Under the pieces are notes generated by a model, which had not been told where the DNA came from, did not search any database, and worked only from the letters and a program-made list of their open reading frames with translations. The position numbers and the translations under genes were made by a program. A stretch of 32,963 bases of DNA from a bacterium HR28 (GTDB lineage: Bacteria; Chloroflexota; Chloroflexia; Thermomicrobiales; Thermomicrobiaceae). This document shows, piece after piece, positions 21,189 through 32,665 of the stretch (within the stretch, counting starts at the first letter, position 1; each line of letters starts with the position of its first letter). The DNA lies in assembly GCA_002898255.1 (NCBI GenBank), contig BEIE01000008.1:1-32963 (forward strand). The letters are read 5' to 3'.

Positions 21189-21217
21189 TTGACGGGCAGA
21201 GGGAGTCGTGGTATGCT
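21189..21217 (+). promoter_or_regulatory. Promoter of rpoB-rpoC
   Basis: TTGACG (21189-21194), a 17-base spacer and TATGCT (21212-21217), the latter preceded by TGG as an extended -10. This is the best promoter match in the gap. It predicts a leader of about 215 bases before rpoB. Confidence 0.75.
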
Positions 21218-21288: not shown

Positions 21289-21323
21289 CCGAGCGGCTGC
21301 GAGCTGCTCGGGGTCTGGTTTTT
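21289..21323 (+). promoter_or_regulatory. Hairpin with T-run in the rpoB leader (candidate attenuator)
   Basis: ccgagcggc and gctgctcgg form a nine-base-pair stem with one G:U pair and loop tgcga (21289-21311). A run of five T follows eight bases later (21319-21323). The gap makes it weaker than a standard terminator. It is better read as a pause or attenuator site in the leader. Confidence 0.4.
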
Positions 21324-24947: not shown

Positions 24948-27900
24948 ATGAGCACTGTTACACGGCAGCGGGACGCACGCAAGTCGGTCGACGTCAACAA
25001 CTTCGAAGCGATTCGGATCGGGCTGGCGTCGCCGGAGGCGATCCGCAGCTGGTCGTATGGCGAGGTCACCAAGCCGGAGACGATCAATTACCGCACGCTG
25101 AAGCCCGAGCATGGTGGCCTCTTCTGCGAGCGGATCTTCGGGCCGACGAAGGACTTTGAGTGTTATTGTGGGAAGTACAAGCGGCAACGATATGCGGGCA
25201 CCATCTGTGACAAGTGTGGTGTGGAAGTTACCCGGTCGAAGGTCCGCCGGGAACGAATGGGTCATATTGAACTGGCGTCCCCTGTTGCGCACATCTGGTA
25301 TGTGAAGGGAACGCCGAGTCGGCTGGGGATCCTGCTCGATATCACACCACGGAATCTGGAGCGAGTCCTCTACTTCGCCTCTTACCTTGTCACACGGGTC
25401 GACGAGGCGAAGCGACAAGAGCTGATCGAAAACATCCGGCAGGAGCTGCAGGCCGAGCTCGAGGAGCTCGATCGGCAGCTGGAGGCAAGGCGTCGAGAAC
25501 TGGAGGAAGCGCAAGGGGCGGAGCTGGCTGCGCTGCGAGAGCGCCGCAGCGCGCTGGAGCGTGAGGCGCTGGAGCGCGCCGCGAGCGCCCGCGAGCGGGT
25601 GCGGCGGCAAGCGGCTGAGGTGCGCGAGCACCTCCAACACCTGCTTGGTCAGGAGGCCGCAGCAGATATTACCTTCGCCGGTCGACTGATCGTTGGCGCT
25701 GGAGAAAGGATCACTGAAGCACATCTCTCCGCGCTGGACGAGGCCGAGCAGGAAGCGGTTGAGGAGGCCGAACGCACCGGGCGCAGCACAGTGACCGGCG
25801 AGCAAGCGCTCGTCGAGGTTGAGCAGGATCTTCTGGTTGCCCGGCTAACCGAGCAACTCGCGACCTTCCAGAACGAAATCGAGCGGCAGAAGGCGGATCT
25901 ACGCGCGGAAGCTGACGAACTGATCCGGCAAGTGCAGGAGATCCATGAGTTGCAGGTACTCACGGAGCAGCAGTACCGGGAGCTCATGGATATCGCCCCA
26001 GGGGTTTTCGAGGCCAAGATGGGGGCGGAAGCGGTCTACGAGGTCGTCTCGCGTATGGATCTCGACCAGCTCTCCGCGCAGCTACGAGCCGAAATGGCGC
26101 AGGCGACGGGGCAGCGACAGAAGCGGATCGCCAAGCGGTTGCGCCTCGTTGAGGCACTCCGGAAGAGCGGGAATCGGCCGGAATGGATGCTCTTGACCGT
26201 GCTCCCGGTCATCCCGCCAGATCTCCGTCCGATGGTGCAGCTTGACGGAGGTCGATTCGCAACGTCGGACCTCAACGATCTCTATCGGCGGGTCATTAAC
26301 CGGAACAACCGGCTCAAGCGGCTGATCGAGTTGGGAGCGCCGGACATCATCATTCGAAACGAGAAGCGCATGCTGCAGGAGGCGGTCGACGCGCTCATTG
26401 ATAATGGCCGCCGTGGGCGTGTCGTGTCCGGGACGAGCAAGCACAAGCTCAAGAGTCTCTCGGACATGCTGAAGGGGAAGCAGGGGCGCTTCCGCCAGAA
26501 CCTCCTGGGCAAGCGAGTAGACTACTCGGGCCGCTCGGTGATTGTGGTAGGCCCAGACCTGAAGTTGCACCAGTGCGGTTTGCCGAAGCGGATGGCGCTC
26601 GAGCTTTTCAAGCCGTTTGTGATGCAGCGGCTGGTGGTGCACGGGCATGCGCACAATATTAAGGCAGCCAAGCGACTCGTGGAGCGGATGGATCCGCGTG
26701 TCTGGGATGTCCTTGAGGAGGTCACCCAGAATTACCTTGTCCTACTCAACCGAGCGCCAACACTGCACCGTCTGGGTATCCAGGCGTTTGAAGTGAAGCT
26801 GATCGAAGGGTCGGCGATCCAGCTGCATCCTCTGGTCTGTGCGGCGTTCAATGCCGACTTTGACGGAGACCAGATGGCGGTGCATGTGCCGCTCTCGGCC
26901 GCAGCGCAGCGTGAGGCGCGGGAGCGCATGCTCTCCACGCGGAACCTCCTTGACCCCTCGGACGGGGAACCAGTGATCGCACCCACTCTGGACATCGTTC
27001 TCGGGTGCTACGTGATGACGCTCCCGAATCCGGAAGCAAAGGGGGCGGGCAAAGTTTTCGCGAACCGAGACGAGGTTGTGCTGGCCTATCAGAGTGGTGC
27101 GGTTGATCTCCAGGCGCCGATCCGCTTGCGAATGGAAGTGGACGGAAGCGGCCCGCAGCTCGTCGAGACGACCGTTGGACGAGTGCTCTTCAACGAGATT
27201 CTGCCCAAGGAACTCGGCTTCTGGAACGAGCTGATGGACCGCAAAGCGTTGCGGCGGCTTATTGCCGAGTGCTACCAGAGACTCGGTCCGGACGAGACAG
27301 CACGACTAGCTGACCGCATCAAGGATCTCGGCTTCCACTATGCCACGAAGAGCGGAATCACGATCGGCGTGACCGATGTGCACATTCCGCCTGAGAAGGC
27401 GGAAATCATCGCGCGCGCTGATCAGCGGGTGGCTGAGGTCGAGCGGCAGTACCGACGCGGCCTCATCACCGACGCTGAGCGCCACCGGGAGGTGGTGGCA
27501 ATCTGGAACGAGGCGCGTGACGAGCTAGCCCAAGTGGTGGAGCGGAGCCTGGGCGAGCAGAACAGCCTCTACATGATGAGTAAGTCCGGTGCCAAGGGGA
27601 ACATCAACCAGATCAACCAGATGGCCGGAATGCGAGGCTTGATGCTCGACCCGAAGGGGCAGATCATCGAGCTTCCGATCCGCTCCAACTTCCGCGAAGG
27701 GCTTTCGGTCCTGGAGTACTTCATCTCGACGCACGGTGCTCGCAAAGGCCTAGCAGACACTGCGCTGCGAACGGCGGACTCCGGGTACCTCACGCGGCGT
27801 CTCGTCGACGTGGCGCAGGACGTCATAGTGACGATCGACGACTGCGGCACCGAGGACGGAATGTGGGTACGGCTGGAGGACGTGCCTGATCGCGAGACGT

Positions 27901-29303
27901 ACGCCGACCGCATCCTCGGGCGCGTCGCGGCACGCGACTTGATTGATCCAGCGACCGGGGAGCTCTTGGTGCGGCGCAACGAGGAGCTGACCGAGCCTAT
28001 TGTGGCGCAGATCGTTGCCTCGCTCGAGCGGCCGGATCCGGCACAGCGGATCACTGCAGTGATGATCCGCACGCCGCTGTACTGCACAGCCGATTATGGG
28101 GTGTGCCGGCTGTGCTACGGCCGGAATCTGGCGACGCGGCAGATCGTCGAACTCGGTGAAGCGGTTGGCATCATCGCCGCGCAGAGCATCGGTGAGCCGG
28201 GAACCCAGTTGACGATGCGCACCTTCCACACGGGTGGGGTAGCCGGTGAGGACATTACGACCGGTCTGCCGCGCGTCGAGGAGTTGTTTGAGGCCCGAGA
28301 ACCGAAGGGGAAGGCGATCCTGGCGAAGATCGACGGCGTAGTGCAGATCGTCGAGGACGAATACGGGCGGAAGGTCGTGGTGCACGATGACCGGCTCGAA
28401 ACCGAGACACACCGGGTGCCGGAGGGGTACGTGCTCCTCGTGGGTACGGGGGAGTCGGTCGCCGCAGGACAGGTACTCGCTCAGCCGGCAGAAGGACAAG
28501 AGGGAGAGCCGATCGTTGCCACGCTGGATGGCGAAGTGTTCGTGGACGGGAACGAAGTCGTTATCCGGCGCGAAGAGCAGCGACGCGAGGAGTACCAGAT
28601 TCCGGCGGCAGCACACCTGCTTGTCAGCGACGGTGACCGCGTCACTGCTGGCCAGCCGCTGACCGATGGAAATGCCAGCCCGGAGGAGCTTCTTTCGACA
28701 CTCGGCCGGGATGTGGTGCAGCGGTACATCCTGGACGAAGTACAAAAGGTTTACAAGTCACAGGGTGTGGTTACCAACGACCGGCACATCGAGATCATTA
28801 TCCGACAAATGTTGCGTAAGGTCGCGGTGACCGATCCGGGAGATACAGATCTCTTGGTCGGGGAGATGCTCGACCGGACGCAACTGCTGCGGATCAACGA
28901 AGAGGTCATCGCGCAGGGTGGTGTACCGGCAACTGCCCAGCAAGTTTTGCTGGGGATTACCAAGGCCTCGCTTGCGACGGAGAGCTGGCTCTCGGCGGCT
29001 TCCTTCCAGGAGACGACGCGAGTCCTGACCGAGGCGGCAATCCAAGGCAAGGTCGACTACCTGCGCGGTCTCAAGGAGAATGTCATCATTGGCAAGTTGA
29101 TTCCCGCCGGTTCTGGGTTCTGGGAGCGGAAGCGCCGACGCGAGGCAGCGCTGAGTGCGCTTGACGAGGTGACACTCGCGGGCTTGGCCGCGGTGGGGCT
29201 TGGCCCTGGTGGAGAGCCGCTGCCCGGGCCCGCGCAGAGTGCAGAGGCCGGTGGGCAACAAGGGAATCCGGACGAGGCTGCGGATTCCAAAGCCAGCGCG
29301 TGA
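24948..29303 (+). CDS. rpoC: RNA polymerase beta' subunit
   Basis: 1451 residues. The zinc site 1 Cys are C72, C74, C87 and C90 ([19 protein letters not shown]). Zinc site 2 is C966, C1046, C1053 and C1056. The catalytic motif NADFDGDQM has its aspartates at 637, 639 and 641. A charged, Glu/Arg-rich coiled-coil insertion of roughly 150 residues lies between [12 protein letters not shown] (about 145) and [12 protein letters not shown] (about 338), where E. coli has only a short linker. The C-terminal tail is Gly/Pro/Ala-rich. ATG 24948 follows gaggtgagg. It is the last gene of this transcript. A separate promoter for the str genes lies about 60 bases downstream. Confidence 0.98.
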
Positions 29304-29360
29304 GCAACCGAGTGGTGCAGCTGGTGGTAGGGCAGCGCCTCTCGGCAGCCGGCAAGTTGC

Positions 29361-29389
29361 TTGACGGTTCGGGAATAGTGCTGTAGACT
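29361..29389 (+). promoter_or_regulatory. Promoter of the str operon (rpsL-rpsG-fusA-tuf)
   Basis: TTGACG (29361-29366), a 17-base spacer and TAGACT (29384-29389). The -35 is identical to that of rpoB. The predicted start (about 29396) falls inside the left arm of the inverted repeat at 29391-29424. Confidence 0.7.
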
Positions 29390-29390
29390 T

Positions 29391-29424
29391 TACCCTCGTG
29401 ACCCGGGTTCGGGTCACGAGGGTA
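29391..29424 (+). repeat. 14-base-pair inverted repeat after rpoC, overlapping the str start site
   Basis: taccctcgtgaccc (29391-29404) and gggtcacgagggta (29411-29424) are perfect complements around the loop gggttc. In a transcript coming from rpoC this is a strong hairpin, followed by tgttattgtt, so it may end rpoC transcription. In DNA it covers the expected str start site and could be an operator. Confidence 0.75.
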
Positions 29425-29446
29425 TGTTATTGTTCAGAGTAGAGGG

Positions 29447-29466
29447 AGCGCTGGGGAACCAGCGCT
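29447..29466 (+). promoter_or_regulatory. Hairpin with GGAA tetraloop in the rpsL leader
   Basis: agcgctgg and ccagcgct form a perfect eight-base-pair stem capped by the GNRA-type tetraloop ggaa. It ends five bases before the rpsL ribosome site (ggagagagagg, 29471-29481). A stable hairpin so near the site may control translation or protect the 5' end. Confidence 0.6.
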
Positions 29467-29487
29467 GGGCGGAGAGAGAGGCCCGAC

Positions 29488-29916
29488 GTGCCGACGATCA
29501 ATCAGCTGGTGCGCAAAGGCCGGGAGAAGCGGACCAAAAAGTCCAAGGCACCTGCGCTCCAATTCATCTATAGCCGTGTCGGTCGAAACGCGGGCAAGTT
29601 GCGCCAAGTGCCAAAGGGGAATCCGCAGAAGCGCGGTGTCTGCATCGCGGTGCGGACAATGACGCCAAAGAAGCCGAACTCGGCACTGCGCAAGATTGCT
29701 CGTGTCCGGCTGACGAACGGTATTGAGGTGACGGCGTATATTCCGGGTGAGGGGCACAATCTGCAAGAGCACTCGGTCGTTCTCGTCCGCGGGGGCCGCG
29801 TGAAGGACTTGCCGGGTGTTCGGTACCATATCGTACGGGGCGCACTCGATGCCAAGGGGGTCGAGAACCGGCGGCAGGGGCGCTCCAAGTACGGGACGAA
29901 GAAGCCCAAGCAGTAG
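29488..29916 (+). CDS. rpsL: 30S ribosomal protein S12
   Basis: 142 residues. [14 protein letters not shown] at the N-terminus, [20 protein letters not shown], then [20 protein letters not shown] and [20 protein letters not shown] are S12 throughout. The lysine positions that decide streptomycin response (TPKKPNS and GRVKDLPG) are the sensitive type. Compared with E. coli (124 residues) there is an insertion of about 18 residues after PALQ ([19 protein letters not shown]). An insertion at the same place occurs in Bacillus-type S12. The GTG start has a strong ribosome site. First gene of the str operon. Confidence 0.98.
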
Positions 29917-30051: not shown

Positions 30052-30522
30052 ATGCCAAGGCGACCGAAGTACGAGCGGCGGACTATTCCACCTGATCCGA
30101 AGTACGGGAGTGAGCTCTTGCAGCGCTTCATCAACAAGGTCATGAAGCGTGGCAAGAAATCACTCGCGGAACGGATTGTCTATTCTGCGTTGGACATTGT
30201 GGCCCAGCGCACGGGGCAACACCCGCTTGAGGTTTTCCAGCGGGCGATTCACAACGCTTCTCCGCTGCTCGAGGTGAAGCCGCGACGCGTCGGGGGCGCC
30301 ACGTACCAGGTGCCAGTGCAAGTTGAACCGCATCGCCGGGTCTCGCTCGCCATGCGCTGGCTCATCCAGTCGGCGCGAAACCGCAGTGGCTACAACTTCA
30401 TCGAAAAGTTGGCGGCGGAGATCATTGACGCTGCCAACAATACGGGAGCTACCATCAAGAAACGGGACGACACGCACCGGATGGCGGAGGCGAACCGTGC
30501 CTTCGCGCATTACCGGTGGTGA
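30052..30522 (+). CDS. rpsG: 30S ribosomal protein S7
   Basis: 156 residues, the usual length. [40 protein letters not shown] and [20 protein letters not shown] are the RNA-binding S7 signatures, and the C-terminus ends at AFAHYRW. S7 nucleates assembly of the 30S head. ATG 30052 has gggaggcag upstream. The long stem-loop in the 135-base gap to rpsL suggests self-regulation. Confidence 0.98.
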
Positions 30523-30556
30523 AAAAGATCAATCACCGAGACAGGGGTCAGGACGG

Positions 30557-32665
30557 ATGAGTACGGTACAGCCACAAATGACTGAAGCCAGGCGTGTGCT
30601 CTTACAACGCACACGGAACATCGGCATCATCGCGCATATCGACGCTGGGAAGACGACAACGACGGAACGCATCCTGTTCTACACCGGGAAGGTCCATCGT
30701 CCCGGCGAGGTTCACGAGGGTACGGCGACGATGGACTGGATGATCCAGGAGCGGGAGCGGGGTATCACGATCACGGCCGCCGCGACGACCTGCTTCTGGC
30801 GTGACCATCGCATTAACATCATTGACACGCCTGGTCACGTGGACTTCACGGTCGAGGTAGAGCGCTCGCTCCGAGTGCTCGACGGGGGGGTCGTCGTCTT
30901 TGACGGTGTCCACGGCGTGGAGCCCCAGTCGGAGACGGTATGGCGGCAGGCCGACAAGTACCATGTGCCCCGCATCTGCTTTATCAACAAGCTGGACCGG
31001 GTCGGCGCGAACTATGTGCGCTCGATCGAAATGATCCGTGAGCGGTTGCGGGCTAACCCGGTCGCAATCCAGTGGCCAATCGGGCTGGAGTCGGAATTCC
31101 GCGGCATCATCGATCTCATCGAGTTCCGCGCCAAGATCTACCATGACGACCTCGGTCAGCACATTGAGGACACCGAGGTGCCGGCAGATTACGTCGAGGT
31201 TGCGCGCGAGTGGCGACACAAGTTGATCGAGCAGATCGTCGAAACAGACGAGGAACTTATGCTGCGCTACCTCGAAGGGGAGGAGCCGACTCCAGAGGAG
31301 CTCCGGCGTGCGCTGCGTGCAGCGACGATCCGTGGGCAGCTTGTCCCAGTGCTCTGCGGATCAGCACTGAAGAACAAGGGAGTTCAGCTGCTCCTGGATG
31401 CAATTGTCGATTACCTGCCTTCGCCGCTCGATATCCCACCCGTGAAGGGAACGCACCCTGTAACCGGGGAGGAAATCACGCGCGAGGCAGACGATGAAGC
31501 ACCATTCGCCGCGCTAGCGTTCAAGATTCAGTCCGATCCACATGTTGGACGCTTGACCTACGTCCGGGTGTACTCAGGGCGACTCCACAGCAGTTCGTAC
31601 GTCTACAACTCGACCAAGGGGGAGCGAGAACGGATTTCGCGCCTCCTTCGAATGCACGCCAACCACCGTGAGGAGGTCGAGTGGATTGGCGCCGGTGACA
31701 TCTGTGCAGTCATCGGGCTGAAGAAGACATTCACTGGTGATACCCTTTGCGATCCTGAGCATCCCATCCTCTTGGAGCCGATCCAGTTCCCGGAGCCAGT
31801 CATCTCTGTTGCGGTCGAACCCAAGACGCGGGCGGACCAAGACAAGCTGGCACTGGCGTTGCAGCGGCTTGCCGAGGAGGATCCGACGTTCCAAGTACGG
31901 ATCGATCCGGAGAGTGGGCAGACGATCATCTCCGGAATGGGCGAGCTGCATCTTGAGGTTATTGTTGACCGCATGCAGCGAGAGTTCAAGGTTGCTGCGA
32001 ACATCGGTCGGCCGCAGGTTGCGTACAAAGAGACCATCACGCGGCCGGTGCGTGTGGAGGGGCGGTTCGTTCGGCAGACTGGTGGGCGCGGCCAGTACGG
32101 ACACGTGTGGTTGGAGCTCGAACCGCTTCCGCGTGGAAGTGGCTTCGTCTTCGAGGATCGGATTGTCGGCGGTGTCATCCCGAAGGAGTTCATTCCTGCG
32201 GTCGAGGCGGGTATCCGTGAGGCGATGCAGAGCGGTGGCGTCGCTGGCTACCCGGTGATCGACATCAAGGCGGTCCTCGTGGATGGTTCGTACCACGAGG
32301 TGGACTCTTCGGAGATGGCGTTCAAGATCGCCGCGTCGATGGCTCTCAAGGAGGGTGTGCGACGCGGTCAGCCGGTCATTCTCGAGCCGATCATGCGTGT
32401 TGAGGTCGTGACACCGGAAGAGTTTACTGGTGACGTGATCGGTGACCTCAATGCACGTCGCGGACGCATTGAGGGAATGGAGATGCGTGCCGGGGCACAG
32501 GTGATCCGTGCTATGGTGCCGCTGGCCACGATGTTCGGGTATGCGACCGACCTGCGCTCCATGACGCAAGGTCGGGGCACGTACACGATGGAGTTTGACC
32601 ATTATGCGCCGGTGCCAGAAAGCCTGGCGCAGGAGCTCTTGGCAAAGGCCGGCAAGGCAAGCTGA
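30557..32665 (+). CDS. fusA: Elongation factor G
   Basis: 702 residues from ATG 30557. The GTPase motifs are intact: AHIDAGKTT (26-34), the RGITI switch I segment, DTPGHVDF and NKLDR. Domains II to V follow, with [11 protein letters not shown]-like domain IV sequence ([18 protein letters not shown]) and a C-terminus at [17 protein letters not shown] moves tRNA and mRNA on the ribosome and acts with the recycling factor encoded at 14982-15539. The same frame is open back to 30323 inside rpsG, but that part is not EF-G. The ribosome site is aggacgg. It lies 34 bases after rpsG. Confidence 0.98.

Follow-up and report, generated by a model that had tools for sequence, protein, structure and literature searches.

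A hairpin at the predicted str operon start site between rpoC and rpsL, lengthened in one clade into a probable start-site-gated terminator

Operons of the ancient RNA polymerase and ribosomal-protein gene cluster may share the sequences that end one transcript and begin the next, and terminator-promoter overlaps between operons of this cluster have been mentioned for Salmonella (Brandis, Cao and Hughes 2019, cited in PMC7055797). Stem-loops at the 5' terminus are also described as stabilising mRNAs, as in ompA and papA (Emory 1992; Bouvet and Belasco 1992; both cited in PMC3997798), whilst in E. coli the site through which S7 controls its own operon, str, is reported to lie between rpsL and rpsG (PMC10931766). 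A literature search that covered few subscription papers returned no account of the rpoC-rpsL junction in the lineage considered here.

We analysed this junction in a window, by which we mean the whole 32,963-nucleotide stretch from bacterium HR28 (Chloroflexota), whose genome comprises 3.12 Mb in 8 contigs; a 400-kb sample of it (~13%) served as background. Pfam identified the neighbouring genes as rpoB, rpoC, rpsL, rpsG and fusA (Table 1), and the true start of fusA probably lies further in, because its open reading frame overlaps rpsG. An earlier note on this DNA had described a perfect inverted repeat with 14-base arms just behind the -10 element of the str promoter. The repeat is real and 34 bases long in total, with 100% complementary arms, a GGTT loop and 10 GC pairs, but each arm has 15 bases rather than 14, and a single base (29390) intervenes between the -10 and the repeat. 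RNA covering 29386-29440 folds at -32.3 kcal/mol (z -6.1), with none of 200 shuffles as good, and one promoter-like site was found in the surrounding 800 bases, against 0.1 expected. The next longest arms inside the window measure 12 and 11 bases. The 400-kb sample yielded 25 perfect repeats with arms of at least 10 bases and loops of 3-8, four of them with arms of 14 and none with arms of 15 or more; a promoter-like site just upstream was found at none of the 14 listed sample repeats with arms of at least 11. Behind the right arm, the tail is of mixed composition, with no unbroken T run longer than two, and at least 7 T in 10 bases occurs at 0.19% of window positions.

Table 1. Features of the rpoC-rpsL junction and adjoining genes (positions in the window)
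Feature	Position	Strand	Description	Basis
rpoC	24948..29303	+	upstream gene, stop codon 29301-29303	ORF; Pfam RNA_pol_Rpb1 domains 1-5
-35 element TTGACG	29361..29366	+		sequence and promoter scan
-10 element TAGACT	29384..29389	+	spacer to -35 of 17; sigma-70-type promoter	
Discriminator TTACCCTC	29390..29397	+	29391-29397 also outer left arm	
Left arm of inverted repeat TACCCTCGTGACCCG	29391..29405	+	15 nt	
Right arm of inverted repeat CGGGTCACGAGGGTA	29410..29424	+	15 nt	
Most likely transcription start, G	29398	+	position 9 after -10	predicted from conservation
Core start-site hairpin GTGACCCG-GGTT-CGGGTCAC	29398..29417	+	order-wide core; predicted in both transcript kinds	
T-rich tail TGTTATTGTT	29425..29434	+	7 T of 10	
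Second short leader hairpin AGCGCTGG-GGAA-CCAGCGCT	29447..29466	+	seen in the window species and G003	
rpsL (S12)	29488..29916	+	str operon gene 1, GTG start	Pfam Ribosom_S12_S23
rpsG (S7)	30052..30522	+		ORF; Pfam Ribosomal_S7
ORF containing fusA (EF-G)	30323..32665	+		Pfam EF-G domains

The DNA upstream of rpsL was compared in 42 genomes of the order, window included, with a script that selected the best promoter from the 330 bases preceding rpsL (one per genome, 42/42). A TTGAC-type -35 was called in all 42, weakly in L032 and L122, and T1, A2 and T6 of the -10 were likewise present throughout, A2 and T6 being demanded by the search. Counted without gaps from the -10, position 9 is G in 41 genomes and position 11 in all 42, while T occupies position 10 in 40 and position 7 in 36. 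The complete motif YYGTG at positions 7-11 was found in 39/42 (exceptions L118, L125 and L129) and mostly opens a hairpin whose stem begins at about position 7-11, its loop in several genomes being of GNRA type; the predicted stem is weak in, or absent from, the best fold of L021, L026, L027, L120 and L128. Among 18 genomes outside the clade of the window, 95% of core-stem cells pair compared with 85.9% after shuffling, and 15 cells have changed on both sides compared with 5.9 (0/500 shuffles reach either value), with three double-changed pairs that are not above shuffles (250/500). Since the register is fixed to the -10, the pairing is RNA-like and a G stands at a plausible +1, the hairpin is likely to form the 5' end of the str mRNA; its register with the -10 would fit a 5'-terminal stem-loop beginning at the predicted 5' end.

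Pattern searches suggested that this promoter-hairpin module is confined to the order. When the promoter followed by YYGTGNCC was searched for as a strict pattern, it occurred once, upstream of rpsL, in 19/21 family genomes and never in reversed form; the other two (G005 and G017) have broken contigs on which rpsL is cut or partial. Scanned over 131 genomes of the class, the pattern matched in 37 (reversed control, 3): 26 of the 42 order genomes, with 24 matches at rpsL and two elsewhere (G021 and G042), and 11 of the 89 genomes outside the order; by these pattern matches the module appears specific to the order. The one out-of-order match inspected (G053:C90) had neither rpoC nor rpsL within 1.4 kb, and of 12 distant, mostly Chloroflexi rpoC loci, L033 alone showed the rpsL start motif. 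Within the genome of the window itself, a looser pattern of promoter plus TGRCC was found at rpsL and at one unrelated place (C1:1221624), and BLAST of 29300-29490 recovered the query and its own reverse palindrome, with no other copy. Rfam 15 gave one chance match on 28800-29900 (ROSE_3, 16.6 bits against a gathering threshold of 43) and chance matches only on 10 relatives.

In the genus of the window (g1, six genomes) and its sister g3 (four), the stem is prolonged back through the discriminator to 15-18 bp in 10/10 genomes. The clade alignment, which includes a further genus, g4, has 11 rows (10 distinct), and all five pairs with changes on both sides fall at positions 1-8 after the -10. 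Across the outer stem, 13 cells have changed on both sides against 5.1 in shuffled alignments (0/500), and 96% of cells pair compared with 29-54% after sliding the arms; further pair types are not in excess of shuffles (353/500). The core is uninformative on covariation within this clade because it is invariant there. One answer to why promoter bases that are predicted to go untranscribed should pair is that the rpoC read-through transcript contains them. Directly downstream of the extended stem, 10 bases contain a mean of 5.3 T (range 4-7, with just 4 in three g3 genomes), against a mean of 1.8 after the separate hairpins that follow rpoC in 16 other genomes. The loop is inverted between very close relatives, reading AACC in L003 and GGTT in L004 (1397-1442 in both), an exact reverse complement of the kind that template switching or inversion of a hairpin loop would produce.

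The extension is inversely distributed with separate hairpins downstream of rpoC. The fetched upstream DNA contained rpoC in 27/42 genomes (seven of the remaining 15 had only ~600 bases), and one script scored the best hairpin between the rpoC end and the -35 against 60 shuffles each. A separate hairpin scoring at least 27 was present in 15/17 other genomes and in 0/10 of g1 and g3, and one that beat all 60 shuffles in 14/17 and 0/10, respectively; conversely, a start-site hairpin scoring at least 35 occurred in 10/10 of g1 and g3 and 0/17 of the others. Over the 27 genomes, Fisher's p was 8e-6 and Spearman's coefficient -0.72, values that overstate independence because the 10 extended genomes are one clade and the pattern amounts essentially to a single gain and a single loss; the 17 other genomes by themselves show a weak trend (Spearman -0.38, p 0.13). 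No strong separate hairpin was found in L017 (12.0) and L016 (20.8), of which L016 has the longest start-site stem among the remaining f1 genera (33.6) and L017 is without an extension as well. The window has a moderate upstream helix of 25.6 (reached by 2/60 shuffles) that is missing from L003, its closest relative (16.6; 29/60). Because their tails are T-poor, the separate hairpins of other genera are likewise no more than presumed terminators. At the same junction in L014 (g5), upstream of 1395, a different kind of terminator-promoter overlap was observed: the -35 takes in the downstream end of the separate rpoC hairpin, whose right arm ...GCGCGTTGA is followed by the CA of TTGACA.

Genus g4 offers a natural case. 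The RpoC tree unites g1, g3 and g4 in one clade (support 100/99), in which g4 has a long branch and is placed next to g1 (86/78). In the g4 genome (G009), an L-lactate permease gene with its full domain lies on the opposite strand between rpoC and rpsL (L164:2822-4660), and rpoC has its own 14-bp hairpin directly downstream, with a score of 39. The g4 start-site hairpin scores 19.2, its left arm, within the promoter, being kept as in g3 and its outer right arm having decayed. On the sequences compared, this single case matches the prediction of the terminator reading.

Other structured leaders and terminator-like sites were encountered along the way. In other genera of the order, the str leader (L023:1365-1503 and relatives; alignment A2, model R1) carries a structured RNA of ~125-195 bases with an invariant GCAGCTG...CAGAGCACGG and 24 predicted pairs, seven of them changed on both sides, which is possibly an undescribed ribosomal-protein leader. 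Model R1 has hits in 28/61 order genomes, of which 18 are the model-building sequences and one (G000) is a weak partial match elsewhere; Rfam 15 returned no match to this RNA in 10 relatives, five of whose loci are among the 18 of the model and the rest of which are not all members. The RNA is mostly missing from the clade of the window: when R1 was run against g1, g3 and g4 leaders, L011 (23.1 bits) and L009 (13.7) gave weak matches at the leader, and the six g1 loci, L010, L012 and L013 gave none there. Within the window, a promoter-like site for rpoB (TTGACG-17-TATGCT, 21189-21217) precedes a terminator-like hairpin in the rpoB leader (21289-21311, then GGTCTGGTTTTT), a possible attenuator. 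A canonical terminator-like site with 14 pairs and the tail CTTTTTTGTT is found at 427-460, an indication that the organism probably uses U-tract terminators.

We consider it probable that the inverted repeat at the junction serves as a start-site-gated terminator, which would end RNA reading through from rpoC and leave a short 5' hairpin on str RNA. Its inner part, from ~29398, would be a hairpin of long standing with which the str mRNA begins, held in fixed register with the -10 across the order. In the clade to which the genus of the window belongs, the stem would have been lengthened upstream into the discriminator, and a T-rich tail lies behind it. A polymerase arriving from rpoC would transcribe both arms, giving a 15-bp stem followed by a U-rich tail at which the rpoBC transcript would end, and a polymerase from the str promoter would start inside the left arm, leaving ~8 bp, no termination and a paired 5' end. 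The position of the 5' end would in this way select between termination and a 5' hairpin. The computed folds are -30.9 kcal/mol for RNA from 29391 and -15.5 kcal/mol for RNA from 29398; the latter should not terminate because its 8 bp are followed by GAGGGTA, seven bases that precede the T-rich stretch. The discriminator (29390-29397) is predicted to lie outside RNA made from the str promoter. As in an intrinsic terminator, the stem-loop is stable and GC-rich (15 bp, 10 GC pairs) and directly followed by a U-rich tract (7 T of 10, which passes a threshold of 5 T in 8), and by anatomy alone the putative terminator and the promoter share bases, the discriminator and predicted start site standing within the stem. 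The fuller account, to which we give about even credence, would have one hairpin read in two ways according to where the RNA starts, having evolved by backward lengthening, replaced an rpoC terminator and reverted after gene insertion. The anatomy, the fixed register, the covariation of the outer stem and the inverse distribution are established by sequence and comparison; we infer the exact start site, termination itself and a role of the 5' hairpin in protecting or regulating the mRNA.

These results bear on what the earlier note had proposed. Its placement of the transcription start inside the left arm receives indirect support from the conserved G at position 9 (29398), in fixed register with the -10, and its suggestion of looking for the repeat in related genomes is borne out by a promoter-repeat arrangement that recurs in relatives. 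Of the jobs it had offered for the repeat, rpoC terminator and rpsL start-site hairpin appear best supported, given the inverse distribution, the covariation, the tail and the decay in g4, whereas the operator comes out weak. The comparisons do not demonstrate the coupling of polymerase to ribosome gene expression that it had envisaged; a terminator at this place would instead insulate str from rpoBC.

Several other explanations of the repeat deserve consideration. It may act solely as a 5' hairpin for stability or regulation of the str mRNA, the outer stem being a by-product of template switching and rpoC remaining unterminated here, which we regard as unlikely. Template switching is described as homogenising arms and inverting spacers (PMC8604942), and the loops of L004 (GGTT) and L003 (AACC) bear this signature; the process could also keep arms matched without selection, and the core does occur across the order without the extension. 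Template switching may indeed have helped to build the repeat, but it does not predict the link to rpoC, and a 5' hairpin by itself leaves unaccounted for the coincidence of the extension with a missing separate rpoC hairpin, the T-rich tail and the decay in g4. A role in processing or protecting the 3' end of rpoC mRNA, with no termination, would agree with separate rpoC hairpins elsewhere that have no T-rich tails, so that evolution may have preserved the ability to form a hairpin. The T-rich tail of the clade and the canonical terminator-like site at 427-460 speak against it, and we judge it the least credible of the readings considered.

Two further explanations place the effect of the repeat on the str promoter itself. 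A dimeric protein could bind the palindrome as DNA and repress or activate transcription, as its position over the start site and the half-site GTGACC, invariant in the clade, might suggest; yet neither the arm-to-arm distance nor the loop is constant (3-5 bases in g1), and genomes outside the clade often show G-U pairs and changes in the right arm. Operator palindromes would have fixed half-sites and fixed spacing at several promoters, whereas the promoter-plus-motif was found once in the genome. No second copy was detected in 19 family genomes with a pattern that includes the promoter and would miss a lone operator. The variable spacing and single occurrence thus make an operator very unlikely. 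About as unlikely is an attenuator of the str operon, for which a start at positions 1-5 after the -10 would place at least 11 bp of stem in the transcript and stop it early unless an antiterminator acts. RNA from 29395 does fold at -22.0 kcal/mol, and T predominates in the tail. Against this, so short a distance between the -10 and the start (1-5 bases) would be out of the ordinary, the conserved letters indicate position 9, and a non-systematic look for alternative antiterminator pairing found none.

If the start-site-gated terminator is real, it would insulate a strong ribosomal promoter from the preceding polymerase operon compactly, with hardly any intergenic DNA, and would provide a concrete evolutionary path from a start-site hairpin to the terminator of a neighbour. 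It would also mean that the need to terminate a neighbouring gene can constrain the discriminator of a promoter, and that rpoC and rpsL would be kept together because the terminator is immovable without the promoter.

Compared with described systems, the repeat resembles intrinsic (Rho-independent) terminators in its GC-rich perfect stem, 4-base loop and T-rich tail, and differs in that the stem contains a predicted promoter start and the tail TGTTATTGTT is mixed, with no T run. Like the ompA and papA stem-loops, as these are cited, it would stand right at the 5' terminus of its transcript, a position predicted here; unlike them, it is a stem conserved at one operon only. As for S7 in E. coli, mRNA structure could conceivably control this operon after transcription, although the hairpin here lies in the 5' leader and the reported S7 site in the rpsL-rpsG gap. 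With respect to the overlaps in Salmonella, both the junction (rpoC-rpsL) and the phylum differ, and the feature described here has its predicted start within the terminator stem and the discriminator as part of one arm. The junction would be a variant of the terminator-promoter overlap, new by virtue of a predicted start site within the stem.
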